Shown piece by piece: positions 10,001 to 24,920 of a stretch of DNA of 24,920 nt. A program made the position numbers and the translations under genes. Source of the DNA: a virus; IMG/VR virus record IMGVR_UViG_3300025326_000194, positions 1 to 24,920 of that record. One strand, given 5' to 3'. Every line of letters starts with the position of its first letter. The first letter of the stretch is position 1. The notes beneath the pieces were generated by a model. That model was not told where the DNA came from. It saw only the letters and a program-made list of their open reading frames with translations, and did no database searches.

Positions 10001-11356
10001 CTACAGGATCAGCAGTAGCTCCTCGGCCTCCTGCTCGATCCGCAATCGGCGTTCGGCTTCGGCTTCCACCCGCCGCCGGAAGGCTAGCGGTGAGCCGGCG
10101 CCGCTGGTTGGCACTATCGGGGCCTCTCCAATCGTGGGAGTGCCCCAGATCTCCGCGGAAGCAATGTCGCCGACACCATCGATTTGATAGCCTTCCGTGA
10201 CAGTCGGCTCGCCCCAGGCTTCAGCCGAAATGATGCCGATTCCATCAAGAGTGATCGCAAGCGCCGCCACGCCCCAGGCTTCCGCACTGGCAATCGCACC
10301 GACGCCATCGATGAAGTCGGTGACCGTGGGCTGGCCCCAGAGTTCGCCCGAAGCAATGTCGCCGACCCCGTCGAGGCTCGGCACCGCGTCCAGTGAACCC
10401 CACGCTTCGGCACTAGCAATCGCCCCCACACCGGCTGGCGCAACGACGGCCGCCGGGCCTCCCCAGGCTTCGCCTGAGGCAATGTTTCCGGCCCCGGCCA
10501 GAATGATTACTGTTGCTGGCGATCCCCATGCCTCCGCCGAGGCTATACTGGATGCCGCCAGGACAATGCTTGCGCTTGGATCACCCCATGCCTCGGCGCT
10601 GGCGATGTTCCCAACGCCATCGATAACGACAACTTCGACGACGGTCGGTTCGCCCCAGTCTTCGGCCGACGCGATGCTTGTTGGATTGGCGACCAGGACG
10701 GTGATTGGTTGGCCCCACGCTTCGCCTGAGGCGATGTTGCCAGCACCACTGATGGTTTGGCCGATGCCCGTCTTCGGCCAGAAGGGTCTCCCAAGAATCA
10801 GCAGGAGCGCGGCATTCCTCCGCATCCTGCCGGCTGTGGAAACCAAAGTCACTACGGATTGCTGGCCCCAGGTTTCAGCGGATGGAACATTCCCTACGCT
10901 CCCGAGGACGACAACGGCATCGGGCGTTCCCCATGCTTCGGCTGAGCTGATGGCATTTGTGGCTAGACCCGAGATCGCCGCCGGACCTCCCCAGGATCCC
11001 GCGCTGGGGATATCACCGACTCCTGCCAGCATCACGACGGTGGTCGGTTGCCCCCAGGCTTCCACGGATGCGGTTGCGCCTGCGCTATCTAATAGCGCGA
11101 TCGCGGCAGGCGATCCCCAGGTCTCTGCCGTTGCAATGTCGCCGATCCCGTTGATTGTGGTCAGCGCGGCTAGTTGTCCCCAAGCCTCACCAGAGGGGAT
11201 GTTGCCGACCCCGTTGAGGTTATCAATGACCGATGGAGATCCCCAGGCTTCGCTGGACGCGAGATTGCCGACGCCATCGATGGTCTGCGCTCCCGCTTCT
11301 TTAAACCAAAAATACCTCCCAGTAAGCAAAAGGAAGGCGGCATTGGTCCGGCTCAT
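10001..11356 (-). CDS. Tandem-repeat virion protein with internal duplication
   Basis: The 451-residue protein consists almost wholly of a 20-21 residue repeat built around 'IASAEAWG.P.....................GvG.'. I count 17 copies, with the Trp at residues 38, 59, 80, 101, 122, 142 and 163, then 214, 234, 257, 277, 298, 319, 340, 361, 381 and 404. A second, higher-order duplication is visible: the opening NAAFLLLTGRYFW recurs as NAALLLILGRPFW exactly 176 residues later. The C-terminal 30 residues are charged and helical (RRRVEAEAERRLRIEQEAEEL). Similar 'SAEAfG.P' repeats occur in uncharacterised phage proteins. A beta-repeat fibre or shell appendage is likely. ATGA overlap with the beta-helix gene implies coupling. 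Confidence 0.85.
   Translation of the reverse strand: MSRTNAAFLLLTGRYFWFKEAGAQTIDGVGNLASSEAWGSPSVIDNLNGVGNIPSGEAWGQLAALTTINGIGDIATAETWGSPAAIALLDSAGATASVEAWGQPTTVVMLAGVGDIPSAGSWGGPAAISGLATNAISSAEAWGTPDAVVVLGSVGNVPSAETWGQQSVVTLVSTAGRMRRNAALLLILGRPFWPKTGIGQTISGAGNIASGEAWGQPITVLVANPTSIASAEDWGEPTVVEVVVIDGVGNIASAEAWGDPSASIVLAASSIASAEAWGSPATVIILAGAGNIASGEAWGGPAAVVAPAGVGAIASAEAWGSLDAVPSLDGVGDIASGELWGQPTVTDFIDGVGAIASAEAWGVAALAITLDGIGIISAEAWGEPTVTEGYQIDGVGDIASAEIWGTPTIGEAPIVPTSGAGSPLAFRRRVEAEAERRLRIEQEAEELLLIL
10115..11270 (-). repeat. Tandem 60-63 bp coding repeats
   Basis: Seventeen diverged copies of a 60-63 bp unit encode the Trp-centred protein repeat. On the plus strand the unit is visible as recurring CCCCAGGCTTC-like blocks followed by GC-rich text with GCAATG or GATGTT. 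The copies differ by many substitutions, so this is an old protein-level repeat, not a recent DNA expansion, and there are no constant spacers as in a CRISPR array. Confidence 0.8.
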
Positions 11357-12606
11357 AGGCCCCGAGGACCGCCCTTCAGGGTCTCAAAGGCTCCGAGGTC
11401 GGGATTCGTGCCGCGGCCAAGCGGGATTCCATCATAATCGACCAGATACCCTAAATTCATACCGGCCTCGATAGCCGCGCTTCCAGAGCCCAAATGAAGA
11501 TTTTCGGCCGTTTCATTCACGAATTCTGCGTCCCCGTCAATTTCTGTTCCATCCAACGTGAAGCCTACCGTTGTCCCATCGCGCAGATCATAAAGATTAT
11601 GCGTGTGAATAAAGGTTCCATAATTGGAGATGTTCGTAAGTCCATCTGCCACTATGAGGTTATTTCGCAATTCGAATGCCGATCCAGGATTGGTAGCGAA
11701 ACCAATCACAACCCAACCGTTGTCTCCGGGCTCAGAAATAATGGCCGTATTGTGATGTACCTGCCACGATGAGAAACTTGTACTTCCAAGATTACCTATC
11801 CACCCCATTACTGCGGCCTCGTCAGTCCCCTCAATCAGAACATTGTGGTGAAAAAGCGTGTTCTGAATACTTGCAGTACCATCTGATCCAACTTCCCAGA
11901 AGCCATTCGTGTTTCTACAGAAATTGTGATGGATATGACAACCATCAACACTGACGCTGCTCGCCGCATACCACTCAAAGGCCCGGCCATCTGGATTCCC
12001 AGAAACGCTATCTATGGCCGTGCAGTTTATCAAGGTGTTATAGGATGCCTCATTACCTGATGCGAAGAACCAAATCCCTACGGCTCCATAACCCTCCGTT
12101 TCATGCTCGTAGACCATCTCAAGATCGTGAATATAATTGCTGGTTGCAAGACCACCAGTTCCATACATATAGATCCCAATACCAACGCCAGTGATCTCAC
12201 AGTTCTGAACAATGTGTCCAGTCGTGTTGAATGGTATGTATATGCCTGATTCATTGCAGTTCTGTAATTTTAGGCCATCGATTGTTATGTAGTCTCCAGC
12301 CAGGCGGATAATCCGAGCGAGATTGCCAGTTGCGTTTGAAAATGTTGGATCGTCACCAGATCCATATGCACCTAGAGTGATGCGATTCTGTGATGTACCG
12401 TCGCTGGCAATTGTGAGAGTGATGCTATTGTCTGTTCCAGGACCAGCCCAACTTTCGCCGCGCTTGAATAGGACGGAATCTCCAGCGGCAAAGCCGGGAT
12501 CGGCATCGAATGATTCAACCTTAGAGAGTGTCTGCCAGGCCAGAGCTTCGGTCAGACCGCTATCGGAATCACTGCCCGTCGTGGCGTCAACATAATAAGT
12601 TGTCAT
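11353..12606 (-). CDS. Parallel beta-helix appendage protein (pectate-lyase-like)
   Basis: The 417-residue protein opens YYVDATTGSDSDSGLTEALAWQTLSKV, the classic start of secreted or tailspike beta-helix proteins with the 'yYVd...GsD.n.Gt....pw.tl..v' motif. It then has repeated short turns rich in Asn, Gly and His (IIRLAGDYITIDGLKLQNC, GIYIPFNTTGHIVQNCEITG, NYIHDLE, HIHHNFCRN, FHHNVLIEG, HHNTAIIS), a right-handed beta-helix ladder, and ends PDLGAFE, another family hallmark. Such proteins bind or cut surface polysaccharides. No catalytic residues can be assigned. Base composition is much lower in GC than neighbours, suggesting recent acquisition. ATGA junctions at both ends tie it to the module. 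Confidence 0.9.
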   Translation of the reverse strand: MTTYYVDATTGSDSDSGLTEALAWQTLSKVESFDADPGFAAGDSVLFKRGESWAGPGTDNSITLTIASDGTSQNRITLGAYGSGDDPTFSNATGNLARIIRLAGDYITIDGLKLQNCNESGIYIPFNTTGHIVQNCEITGVGIGIYMYGTGGLATSNYIHDLEMVYEHETEGYGAVGIWFFASGNEASYNTLINCTAIDSVSGNPDGRAFEWYAASSVSVDGCHIHHNFCRNTNGFWEVGSDGTASIQNTLFHHNVLIEGTDEAAVMGWIGNLGSTSFSSWQVHHNTAIISEPGDNGWVVIGFATNPGSAFELRNNLIVADGLTNISNYGTFIHTHNLYDLRDGTTVGFTLDGTEIDGDAEFVNETAENLHLGSGSAAIEAGMNLGYLVDYDGIPLGRGTNPDLGAFETLKGGPRGL

Positions 12607-22090: not shown

Positions 22091-22335
22091 TACTGCACAT
22101 CCAATCGTTTCTGAGCCTGCATCCGAGCGAGTCGCTCGCGCACCCTGGACCTGTAGACAATCGCATCCTGCGCCTTGGCAAAGATCCGCCGGCTGAAGCG
22201 CCTGCGCAGCCCATCCGGCGCCGTCAGGATGCTCCGGAAGCGTTCCGGTTCCCAACGCTGCCGGCGAAAGCGCACATAACCGGCGAGGTCGTTCACCATC
22301 CATGTCACGCCCGAGGTGTCGACGAAGTGCTTCAT
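22090..22335 (-). CDS. Small basic protein of unknown function
   Basis: An 81-residue protein starting MKHFVDTSGVTWMVNDLAGYVRFRRQRWEPERFRSILTAPDG. The middle and end are Arg-rich and helical (RRRFSRRIFAKAQDAIVYRSRVRERLARMQ), consistent with nucleic acid or protein binding. ATGA overlap with the HNH gene and TAGTG overlap with the next gene link it into a coupled series. No recognised motif. Confidence 0.65.
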   Translation of the reverse strand: MKHFVDTSGVTWMVNDLAGYVRFRRQRWEPERFRSILTAPDGLRRRFSRRIFAKAQDAIVYRSRVRERLARMQAQKRLDVQ

Positions 22336-22835
22336 CTGCCATCCCAGTAGTAACCGTCGAACTTCGACTCCCGATAGGTCCGCCAGCGAGCTCGTTGGGC
22401 TGCGCCGGCGTGTTTCTTCTTGCGCTCCAGTATCTCCGGATCTTCCATCGTCCGTGCTAGGTTTTCCGAGCGCGGCATGGCCTCGAGATTGGCGGCCCGA
22501 TCATCCAACGAATCACCATTCCGATGACGCACGATCCAACCGGCCGGTAAGGTTCGGCGATGATGCTTCTCCCAAACAAGATGGGAGCGCGATCTCCAGA
22601 CGTTGGGCTCACAGACCTTGATCCAGCAGAGGTTGCCCTTCCTGATGGCCTCGGATCCAACCGGCACCCAGTTCTGCGGCCGACTGCCTGGCTTGAATTC
22701 GGTCTGGCGGCTGCGATGCTGGCCCTTCCAGCCTTTTCGGGCACAGGCCTTCGAGCAGTAGCGCTTGCGCTCGATCAGAGCGGGACGCAACATCACGAGG
22801 CCGTTGCAGACCTGGCAGCGCTTGAGGACGCTCAC
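22332..22835 (-). CDS. HNH endonuclease with N-terminal zinc motif
   Basis: A 167-residue protein from GTG 22835, overlapping the ParB-like stop as GTGA. The N-terminus has a Cys cluster (CQVCN near residue 8, then YCSKAC) that should bind zinc. Then comes an HNH_3-like domain: SHLVWEKHHRRTLPAGWIVRHRNGDSLDDRAANLEAMPRSENLARTM, with the family's spacing H...W...H, v.H.NGd..DnR..NLe.....N. This nicks or cuts DNA. It may be a free-standing homing-type enzyme, or support packaging as some phage HNH proteins do, although it is 2.7 kb from terS. Upstream in-frame codons belong to the ParB overlap. Confidence 0.87.
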   Translation of the reverse strand: MSVLKRCQVCNGLVMLRPALIERKRYCSKACARKGWKGQHRSRQTEFKPGSRPQNWVPVGSEAIRKGNLCWIKVCEPNVWRSRSHLVWEKHHRRTLPAGWIVRHRNGDSLDDRAANLEAMPRSENLARTMEDPEILERKKKHAGAAQRARWRTYRESKFDGYYWDGR

Positions 22836-24601
22836 TCGTCGTCCTCCGCGGTCTCTGTTTCCGTGGAAGCGGGCTCGTACCCGGCGGCGATCTCGTCCCA
22901 ATCCTTCGGGAGCCTGGCCCCGAGAGTCTTCGCGACGCCCGCAAGGTGCTTAGCTACCGCCTGGGGGCCCTTCCTGGCATCGCGGAAATCGAGCGCGCTG
23001 ATCAGTACGGCGGAGGCGATCCGCGCCCGCAGCGTGGCCAGGCGGGCGGCCTTATCCTTCGATACTCCGGCCTTCGAGCGTCCCTCGTCATCCCGAAGGG
23101 CGTCATGGATCATTTCAAGGCCGGCGATGCTCTCGCTGTTGACGAGCGCCTCGGCCAGGATCGGGCCCGCCTGTTGGCGGACGAAGTTTTGCGCCGCGCG
23201 CTGGAGCGCCCATTCCCGGTCCTGCTTCTTGCGTTGCGCCTCGTAGTCGTATCGAGGGCTGCCTACCCTTTTCTTGTCGGCCGCTAGGGCCTTCTCCGCC
23301 GGCTTACCAACACGGATCAGCTCGACGACGTGCGAGCCTGTGCCTGGTCCTTTGCGGTAGCCCGGCGTCTTGCCCCGGAGCCGTAGGCTGGCGTCCTTGG
23401 CGTCGAGCAGTTTCTGCCAGGTCGAGTGCAGTCTCTCTTCCATGCGGTATGGCTCATCAGCGTTGACGTATTCGATCGGCGCCGAGATATGTGCCTTGCC
23501 ATCGGCTGCCGGGTCGTAGATCGGGATCCCGAGCTTCTTGCTTAGCCGCCGCGTCTCTGCCGCAATCCAGGCCCGCCGCTTCTGCGTCCAGCAGACCTTG
23601 ATCCCGCAGTAGTGCGAACCATCCAGGACCTGGTGAAACTCGCAGGCACTGCACGGGGGCGGCGCAACGAGCTGGCGGATCCACGTTGCCGTGTCTTCAC
23701 CAATGCCCCAGAGCGTGTCGATGCCCACGGGGTCTGTACCGGAGGCCAGAGCGAAGATGATCTCCGAGAGCGCCTGATCCGGTCCCGCGTTCTTGAGATC
23801 CGATTTTTTGAGCCGGATGGCAAGACGCTCTGGAAGCATCTTGAGCAGAGCTGTAGGCGACGGTGGATCCACCGTGGCCTTCCAGTCCAGCCGCCACAGG
23901 CCTTCGCCGGCTCGAATCTTGTCGCTGTCTTCGTCAGTGCTCTTGCTCGCCTGCCACCGGGCGACCATGCGGAAGGATTCTTCTCCGAGGACATCACCAA
24001 TCCACGCTGTGATCTCCTCGGCACTCTCATAGCCGCCGGCGGTGAGCTTGATCGCCATACCCTCGACGCGTTGTGGTGCCAGCTTTTGCAGCGTCAAGAG
24101 CTTACGTGCTGTGCCCTCGGTGATTTGTGCGCCCACCTGGCCCTGCACCGCTGCCGGCAGCTCGAGCAGGCGGACCTTGTTACGCACGGCCGAAGCCGAC
24201 AAATGGAACAGCTCACCGATCTCCTCGGACGTCTTCCCAAATTGGTCCCGGTAGGTCGCCATCGCCCGAGCTTCCTCGATCGGCGTGAGCTCCTTTCGCT
24301 CGAGGTTCTCCCGGATGGCTAGCTCGAACATCTCCTGGTCCGAAAGCTCGCGGACGTCGACGGGCATCTGCTCAAACTCACGATGCCCATCCGCGACGAG
24401 CTTGCGATATGCAGCAAGCCTCGTGTGCCCGAACGCCAGCTGCACTCCCTTGCCGTCGGCTCGCCGACCTACGGGCACCTGGAGCAACCCGACCTTTAGG
24501 ATCGAGCCGGCCACTTCCACGACCTGGTCGGGATCCTCTCGCTCCCGGGTCTGGTAGGGGTTGGGCGACAGCTGATCGATCTTCATGATGGCGATGTTCA
24601 T
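22832..24601 (-). CDS. Large ParB-like protein with central zinc-type Cys cluster
   Basis: A 589-residue protein. Residues 1-105 are a ParB N-terminal domain: IDQLSPNPYQTR, FGHTRLAAYRKL (58-68, the GxRR-like CTP-binding box), and the ENLERKELTPIEEA segment (98-111). A helix-turn-helix region (about 120-150, TSEEIGELFHLSASAVRNKVRLLEL) follows. The middle contains a Cys cluster, Cys317, Cys320, Cys332 and Cys337 (CSAC...YCGIKVC), likely zinc-binding. The rest is a long charged helical tail. It is much longer than usual ParB (about 280-350). Phages use such proteins as partition, transcription or nuclease factors. GGGAGGT lies 6 bases upstream. Upstream palindromes could be its binding sites. 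Confidence 0.88.
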   Translation of the reverse strand: MNIAIMKIDQLSPNPYQTREREDPDQVVEVAGSILKVGLLQVPVGRRADGKGVQLAFGHTRLAAYRKLVADGHREFEQMPVDVRELSDQEMFELAIRENLERKELTPIEEARAMATYRDQFGKTSEEIGELFHLSASAVRNKVRLLELPAAVQGQVGAQITEGTARKLLTLQKLAPQRVEGMAIKLTAGGYESAEEITAWIGDVLGEESFRMVARWQASKSTDEDSDKIRAGEGLWRLDWKATVDPPSPTALLKMLPERLAIRLKKSDLKNAGPDQALSEIIFALASGTDPVGIDTLWGIGEDTATWIRQLVAPPPCSACEFHQVLDGSHYCGIKVCWTQKRRAWIAAETRRLSKKLGIPIYDPAADGKAHISAPIEYVNADEPYRMEERLHSTWQKLLDAKDASLRLRGKTPGYRKGPGTGSHVVELIRVGKPAEKALAADKKRVGSPRYDYEAQRKKQDREWALQRAAQNFVRQQAGPILAEALVNSESIAGLEMIHDALRDDEGRSKAGVSKDKAARLATLRARIASAVLISALDFRDARKGPQAVAKHLAGVAKTLGARLPKDWDEIAAGYEPASTETETAEDDE

Positions 24602-24920
24602 CCTGAACCTCCCGCGGGTGTCCGCACCGAGTGTGCGCGGCAGTCATCGGCCACACTCGTGCCCCGGTGCCCTTCCGCTATCAGGCCGCCACACTTGTCG
24701 CACCGGAAGTACCCGTCGGGAACGACGACGTCGGCGATTCCGACCGGTCGGATTCGGGGTCGGGATTTCCGACCCGAACCGTTATTAACCGAGGTCTCAG
24801 AACTTAAGATCTTAAGATCAAGTTCCTTAAGGATCGGGTCGGATTCCGACCCGTCGGATTCCGACCCGTCGTGAATTCCGACTCCGCCAGATGTGGCCGG
24901 TCCAGATTGCCCCTTGTCAG
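24598..24920 (-). CDS. 3' end of a gene with C-terminal Cys/His cluster
   Basis: The frame is open from the right edge to TGA 24598, which overlaps the ParB-like ATG as ATGA. The visible 106 residues are low complexity (GIHDGSESDGSESDPILKELDLKILSSETSVNN), then GRKSRPRIRPVGIADVVVPDG, and end with a Cys/His cluster (YFRCDKCGG, then DDCRAH). The start is outside the window, so the N-terminal function is unknown. The DNA in this linker is unusual: tandem palindromes and an AT-rich island. A replication initiator with an internal origin, as in lambda O, would fit, but this is inference. Confidence 0.7.
   Translation of the reverse strand, partial: DKGQSGPATSGGVGIHDGSESDGSESDPILKELDLKILSSETSVNNGSGRKSRPRIRPVGIADVVVPDGYFRCDKCGGLIAEGHRGTSVADDCRAHSVRTPAGGSG
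24757..24775. repeat. Inverted repeat GGGTCGG...CCGACCC
   Basis: Seven-bp perfect arms with a 5-base centre (GATTT) repeat the core of the tandem palindromes about 80 bp away. A further related near-copy, GTCGGCGATTCCGAC, sits at 24730-24744. Together with the tandem copies they bracket an AT-rich segment. Confidence 0.65.
24781..24834. other. AT-rich palindromic island (possible DNA-unwinding element)
   Basis: By direct count this 54-base stretch has 19 G/C, about 35%, within GC-rich DNA. It contains the perfect 14-base palindrome CTTAAGATCTTAAG (24803-24816) and CCTTAAGG (24825-24832), between two groups of GTCGG/CCGAC palindromes. This mix of iteron-like repeats and an AT-rich block is like a phage replication origin. 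The role is unproven. Confidence 0.5.
24836..24885. repeat. Tandem palindromic repeats (GTCGGATTCCGAC)
   Basis: Two perfect 15-bp direct repeats (24838-24852, 24853-24867) and one degenerate third copy ending near 24885. The first copy lies within a 17-base palindrome, GGGTCGGATTCCGACCC, with 8-bp arms around one central base. The unit is in frame with the overlapping gene and encodes GSESD. It resembles iterons or operator sites. Confidence 0.75.

Follow-up and report, generated by a model that had tools for sequence, protein, structure and literature searches.

A candidate replication origin of the lambda type lies inside an O-like replication initiator gene at the right end of the window (the whole stretch of DNA analysed, a complete IMG/VR contig, linear and 24,920 bp long, from a tailed phage), and this region very likely serves as the origin. 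The earlier note had proposed an origin within an initiator gene at this position, and the proposal is supported by the identity of the initiator, the array of sites, the constraint at the DNA level and the place where the duplex is weakest. In the proposed mechanism, the O-like winged-helix initiator would bind GTCGGAATCCGAC dyads, probably as dimers, in the DNA that encodes its own flexible linker. The nucleoprotein complex would then open the adjoining weak duplex at 24782–24831, and the helicase would be loaded there. Table 1 lists the features of the region.

Table 1. Features of the candidate origin region and the adjacent gene (positions in the window)
Feature	Position	Strand	Remarks
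ParB-like protein gene	22832–24601	-	ParB_N + HTH_ParB; start codon overlaps the initiator stop codon
O-like replication initiator gene, C-terminal 106 codons	24598–24918	-	open frame leaving the contig at its right end
C-terminal Cys/His cluster, CxxC...CxxH	24598–24705	-	predicted beta-beta-alpha, moderate confidence
Iteron-like dyad GTCGGAATCGCCGAC	24730–24744	-	frame 0, second cluster
Inverted half-sites AATCCGACCGGTCG	24741–24754	-	second cluster
Iteron-like dyad GTCGGAAATCCCGAC	24759–24773	-	frame 1, second cluster
Candidate unwinding element	24782–24831		weakest 50-bp duplex of the contig; contains CTTAAGATCTTAAG
Exact iteron GTCGGAATCCGAC	24838–24850	-	frame 2; within the dyad 24835–24853
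Exact iteron GTCGGAATCCGAC	24853–24865	-	frame 2
Degenerate iteron-like dyad GTCGGAATTCACGAC	24868–24882	-	frame 0

The N-terminus of the initiator is outside the window, and its winged helix is known from a close relative alone, contig 3300025326_000200 (L004/G002), whose DNA is 89% identical across the initiator region. This is the one further close relative of the gene found in viral contigs; genome contigs yielded none. L004 has the full gene (L004:3375–4004, 209 codons), and the gene in the window is tied to it by a collinear alignment, so that the array falls within DNA coding for a replication initiator. The 209-aa protein has an N-terminal winged helix of the HTH_36 type (4e-6), and its residues 1–149, i.e. 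the N-terminus and linker, match PHROG 391, “replication initiation O-like” (E = 8.8e-15). A PHROG search with the C-terminal part encoded in the window alone gave zero matches. The predicted structure of the L004 protein shows a confident winged helix-turn-helix (wHTH) at residues 1–90 (pLDDT 91–98), and the repeat-coding part is predicted to be a disordered linker. Thus a winged-helix initiator domain, on which the earlier note had made its proposal depend, is present in the gene of the relative, and the linker that it had read from the repeats, ahead of a Cys/His end, is found there in the full-length protein.

Foldseek searches of the PDB with the L004 wHTH yield generic winged helices alone, of MarR/Fur-type repressors, and a search of a viral fold library yields phage HTH proteins, one of which is annotated as replication protein O. 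Pfam Phage_rep_O (PF04492) does not match the L004-type protein (P0003), which has HTH_36 instead; lambda O does match.

The terminase, portal, head and tail genes are on the minus strand of the window, and the phage is probably temperate. An open reading frame upstream of the L004 initiator gene (L004:872–1948) has apparent tyrosine-integrase-like C-terminal motifs, which suggest a temperate phage.

The initiator gene is on the minus strand, and in gene sense the repeat unit is the dyad GTCGGAATCCGAC. Its two exact copies are 15 bp apart, and the 15-mer GTCGGATTCCGACCC is present as an exact tandem pair at 24838–24852 and 24853–24867. The dyad at 24835–24853 is CGGGTCGGA-T-TCCGACCCG, with a single base between its two 9-bp arms. 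The tandem repeats, the degenerate third copy and the related dyads are all present where the earlier note put them; the 17-base palindrome that it described is also present, as the inner part of this longer dyad. The half-site GTCGGAAT (one mismatch or none) occurs nine times at positions 24700–24920, versus 13 times in the remaining 24.7 kb, where there are at most two per 80-bp stretch and no exact copy. A scan of viral contigs for the exact 15-mer gave 44 matches, 43 of which are single copies and were counted as chance; the tandem pair is found in L004 alone.

Within the gene, the GTCGGAATCCGAC motif is found in each of the three reading frames, and the encoded peptides differ (GSESD, RKSRP and VGIAD). 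At both k = 8 and k = 9, the window part and the L004 gene each surpass all 2000 synonymous-codon shuffles in repeat load and in multi-frame repeats; none of 16 other genes in the window is above all of its own 300 shuffles. Because the motif is found in three reading frames and the load is above every synonymous shuffle, the repeats as read from the sequence serve the DNA and not the protein alone.

A comparison of silent sites, which involves two sequences only (the window and L004), shows no third-position changes in 33 codons of the 5′ array. The ParB-like gene has 32 changes in 150 codons (p = 0.0016 versus the 5′ array) and the Cys/His domain 12 in 38 (p = 0.0002 versus the 5′ array). 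The 3′ cluster is less conserved than the 5′ array, with 4 changes in 27 codons. The invariance of the 5′ array could instead stem from recent recombination. The earlier note had looked to conservation of the repeats despite a changing protein sequence, and the three frames, the 5′ array free of silent changes and the shuffles that are exceeded agree with this. The multiple near-identical sites are thus constrained at the DNA level.

The weakest duplex of the contig is situated between the two clusters of sites. By nearest-neighbour stability, none of 24,871 windows of 50 bp is weaker than 24782–24831, and the weakest 30-bp duplex is at 24801–24830. With 70-bp windows there are three weaker places, all in a low-GC gene at 11.5–12.3 kb. 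The earlier note had pointed to an AT-rich block here. It has 35.3% GC over 24782–24832 and includes the 14-bp AT palindrome CTTAAGATCTTAAG at ~24803–24816, as described, but the palindrome is not conserved in L004. The gap sequence in L004 has been replaced, does not contain CTTAAGATCTTAAG and has 51% GC, yet it is still near the weakest of its 8.4 kb (2 of 8416 windows are weaker); low stability is therefore kept although the palindrome is not. The array thus adjoins an easily melted tract whose sequence is not conserved. As a functional site in itself, the CTTAAGATCTTAAG palindrome is ruled out by its lack of conservation in L004. GC skew shows no clear switch in the L004 contig, and in the window contig the array is at the very end; this is neutral with respect to an origin.

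The low-GC gene (window positions 11353–12606) has an unusually low GC content (~50–54% versus ~62%), and several of the contig's weakest duplexes lie in it. It displays a weak PHROG match to a hydrolase and was possibly acquired recently.

Lambda O was used as a positive control. It displays a repeat load of 91 versus 35 and a multi-frame score of 25 versus 5, and none of 2000 shuffles reaches it; its weakest 50 bp is directly 3′ of the annotated iterons. Lambda P is without the repeat signature in the same shuffle test.

A survey was made of 41 non-redundant O-like genes (L004 among them, as L059), with 73 mechanical open reading frames from the same loci as controls, some of which may not be genes. 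Repeat load is above all 400 shuffles in 22 of the 41 O-like genes versus 3 of the 73 controls (4%), and multi-frame repeats exceed all shuffles in 13 of 41 versus 2 of 73. A weak tract is present in the linker of 11 of 40 O-like genes at the 5% level. The repeat load in about half of the O-like genes suggests that an origin within the initiator gene is common in this family. Site sequences are group-specific: one group has CAGGGGTGA every 21–23 bp in rotating frames, and enteric phages have GTCAGAATCTGAC-like sites every 15 bp. The CAGGGGTGA arrangement is seen in the O-like genes of L061, L062, L087, L097, L133 and others, and on sequence grounds these genes are strong candidate origins of other uncultured phages.

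Sites like those in the window are more common in initiators with an STV recognition helix (p = 0.0005), which the relative of the window has, and the more alike two recognition helices are, the more repeated 7-mers are shared. Site sequence would accordingly appear to follow the recognition helix; overall relatedness confounds this covariation.

An origin inside the initiator gene is established in lambda, whose ori in gene O consists of iterons and an AT-rich tract, and in Stx phages, whose origins have been placed on conditional-origin plasmids of the R6K type (PMC7466680). Likewise, oriL of SPP1 is inside gene 38, the gene of the origin-binding protein; SPP1 also has an oriR, and its helicase and loader are phage-encoded (PMC6316719). 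A literature search found these cases, lambda/Stx and SPP1, and no survey of HTH_36 initiators.

As in lambda, dyad sites are repeated where the initiator gene of the window codes for the linker, the weakest duplex comes after them, and there are repeats in several frames in excess of what coding requires. It differs in several respects. The iterons of lambda are 18 bp and 20–24 bp apart, whereas the window has a 13-bp dyad, mostly in 15-bp steps, and its sites flank the weak tract. The initiator is of the HTH_36 type, not Phage_rep_O (PF04492), and has a Cys/His C-terminus. In lambda, P is next to O; no helicase-loader gene (an analogue of lambda P) was recognised beside the initiator, and a ParB-like gene is found there instead.

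The O-like initiators of the enteric phages Citrobacter phiNP and Yersinia YeP1 (PHROG 391, with SKSD linkers) share with the window a 15-bp spacing of sites, whose sequence is similar (GTCAAAATCTGAC / GTCAGAATCCGAC), and a similar recognition helix (STV). Their initiators differ in an N-terminal domain that is only ~30–33% identical and, in phiNP, in a C-terminal domain that is Phg_2220_C. Arthrobacter phages Kels and Toulouse (Decurrovirus) have a short HTH initiator gene of the same layout (a wHTH, a repeat-bearing linker and a Cys-rich C-terminus), but an unrelated iteron of ~25-bp units with CCCCCGGGGGGG. SPP1 oriL likewise has direct repeats and an AT-rich unwinding element inside the gene of the origin-binding protein (PMC6316719), a likeness of anatomy drawn from the published description.

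The adjacent gene offers another explanation, which the earlier note had also raised, namely that the array would serve the ParB-like protein, as its centromere-like or operator cluster, and not the initiator. The overlap of this gene with the initiator stop codon would make it a natural neighbour of its own site. The two are separable, however. G002 (the L004 genome) has a ~2-kb deletion that cuts the ParB-like gene inside HTH_ParB, and the array is present there with its 5′ part identical. Conversely, the ParB-like protein of contig G001 is complete (52% identical), yet no such array is found there, and the initiator of G001 is a different one (PHROG 3926). A parS-type centromere would be kept with an intact cognate ParB and be present beside its homologues, which is not what is found. 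In addition, enteric phages have similar sites in their O-like genes, and the annotated genes displayed next to these encode methyltransferases or hypothetical proteins, not ParB. A ParB-binding cluster is accordingly disfavoured and considered improbable. Slightly less probable still is that the array combines the functions of origin and partition site, being recognised by the O-like initiator as well as by its ParB-like neighbour; the prophage could then persist as a plasmid, and, in contrast to lambda, initiator sites would be present to either side of the unwinding tract.

The deletion in G002 corresponds to window positions 22122–24136 (L004 ~4464). It removes most of the ParB-like gene, i.e. 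its last three quarters, together with an HNH endonuclease gene, and its junction is at imperfect TGCAGG..CAG repeats. A different initiator (L003:2855–3442, PHROG 3926) is located upstream of a related ParB-like gene; its linker is a simple repeat (GAGGTAGAGG/GAGGGAGAGG) and its C-terminus bears a Cys cluster, and it possibly represents another origin within an initiator gene, of a different type.

Repetition in the DNA might also be a by-product of tandem duplication in a low-complexity protein linker, with no function at the DNA level. The tandem 15-bp units do encode GSESD twice, and the linkers of related proteins are also repetitive. Yet the motif is present in three frames, and the 5′ array displays no silent drift; because the load is above all 2000 synonymous shuffles, the repeats are not a mere by-product of a repetitive peptide. 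Related linkers, moreover, hold a DNA motif in rotating frames, as with CAGGGGTGA in L062, L087 and L097. This explanation is given very little likelihood. A role as an operator, at which the initiator or another phage regulator would repress the early operon while the origin is elsewhere, appears just as improbable. Dyad operators are common, and the repressor matches of the wHTH would fit such a role, though they are generic for this fold. The sites, on the other hand, are deep inside a gene, to either side of the contig's weakest duplex, and not at a recognised promoter, and the family annotation (PHROG 391) is replication initiation.

An origin within the initiator gene is thus the preferred interpretation. 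The design is already known; what is particular here is the site sequence, the two-sided layout, the Cys/His C-terminus and the ParB-like neighbour. The analysis gives an uncultured phage a specific candidate origin together with its putative binding site. It further indicates that the sequence of an O-like phage can reveal its origin, as repeats beyond coding need, in rotating frames, beside the weakest duplex. If site sequence does track the recognition helix, this would make an initiator-to-origin code testable.
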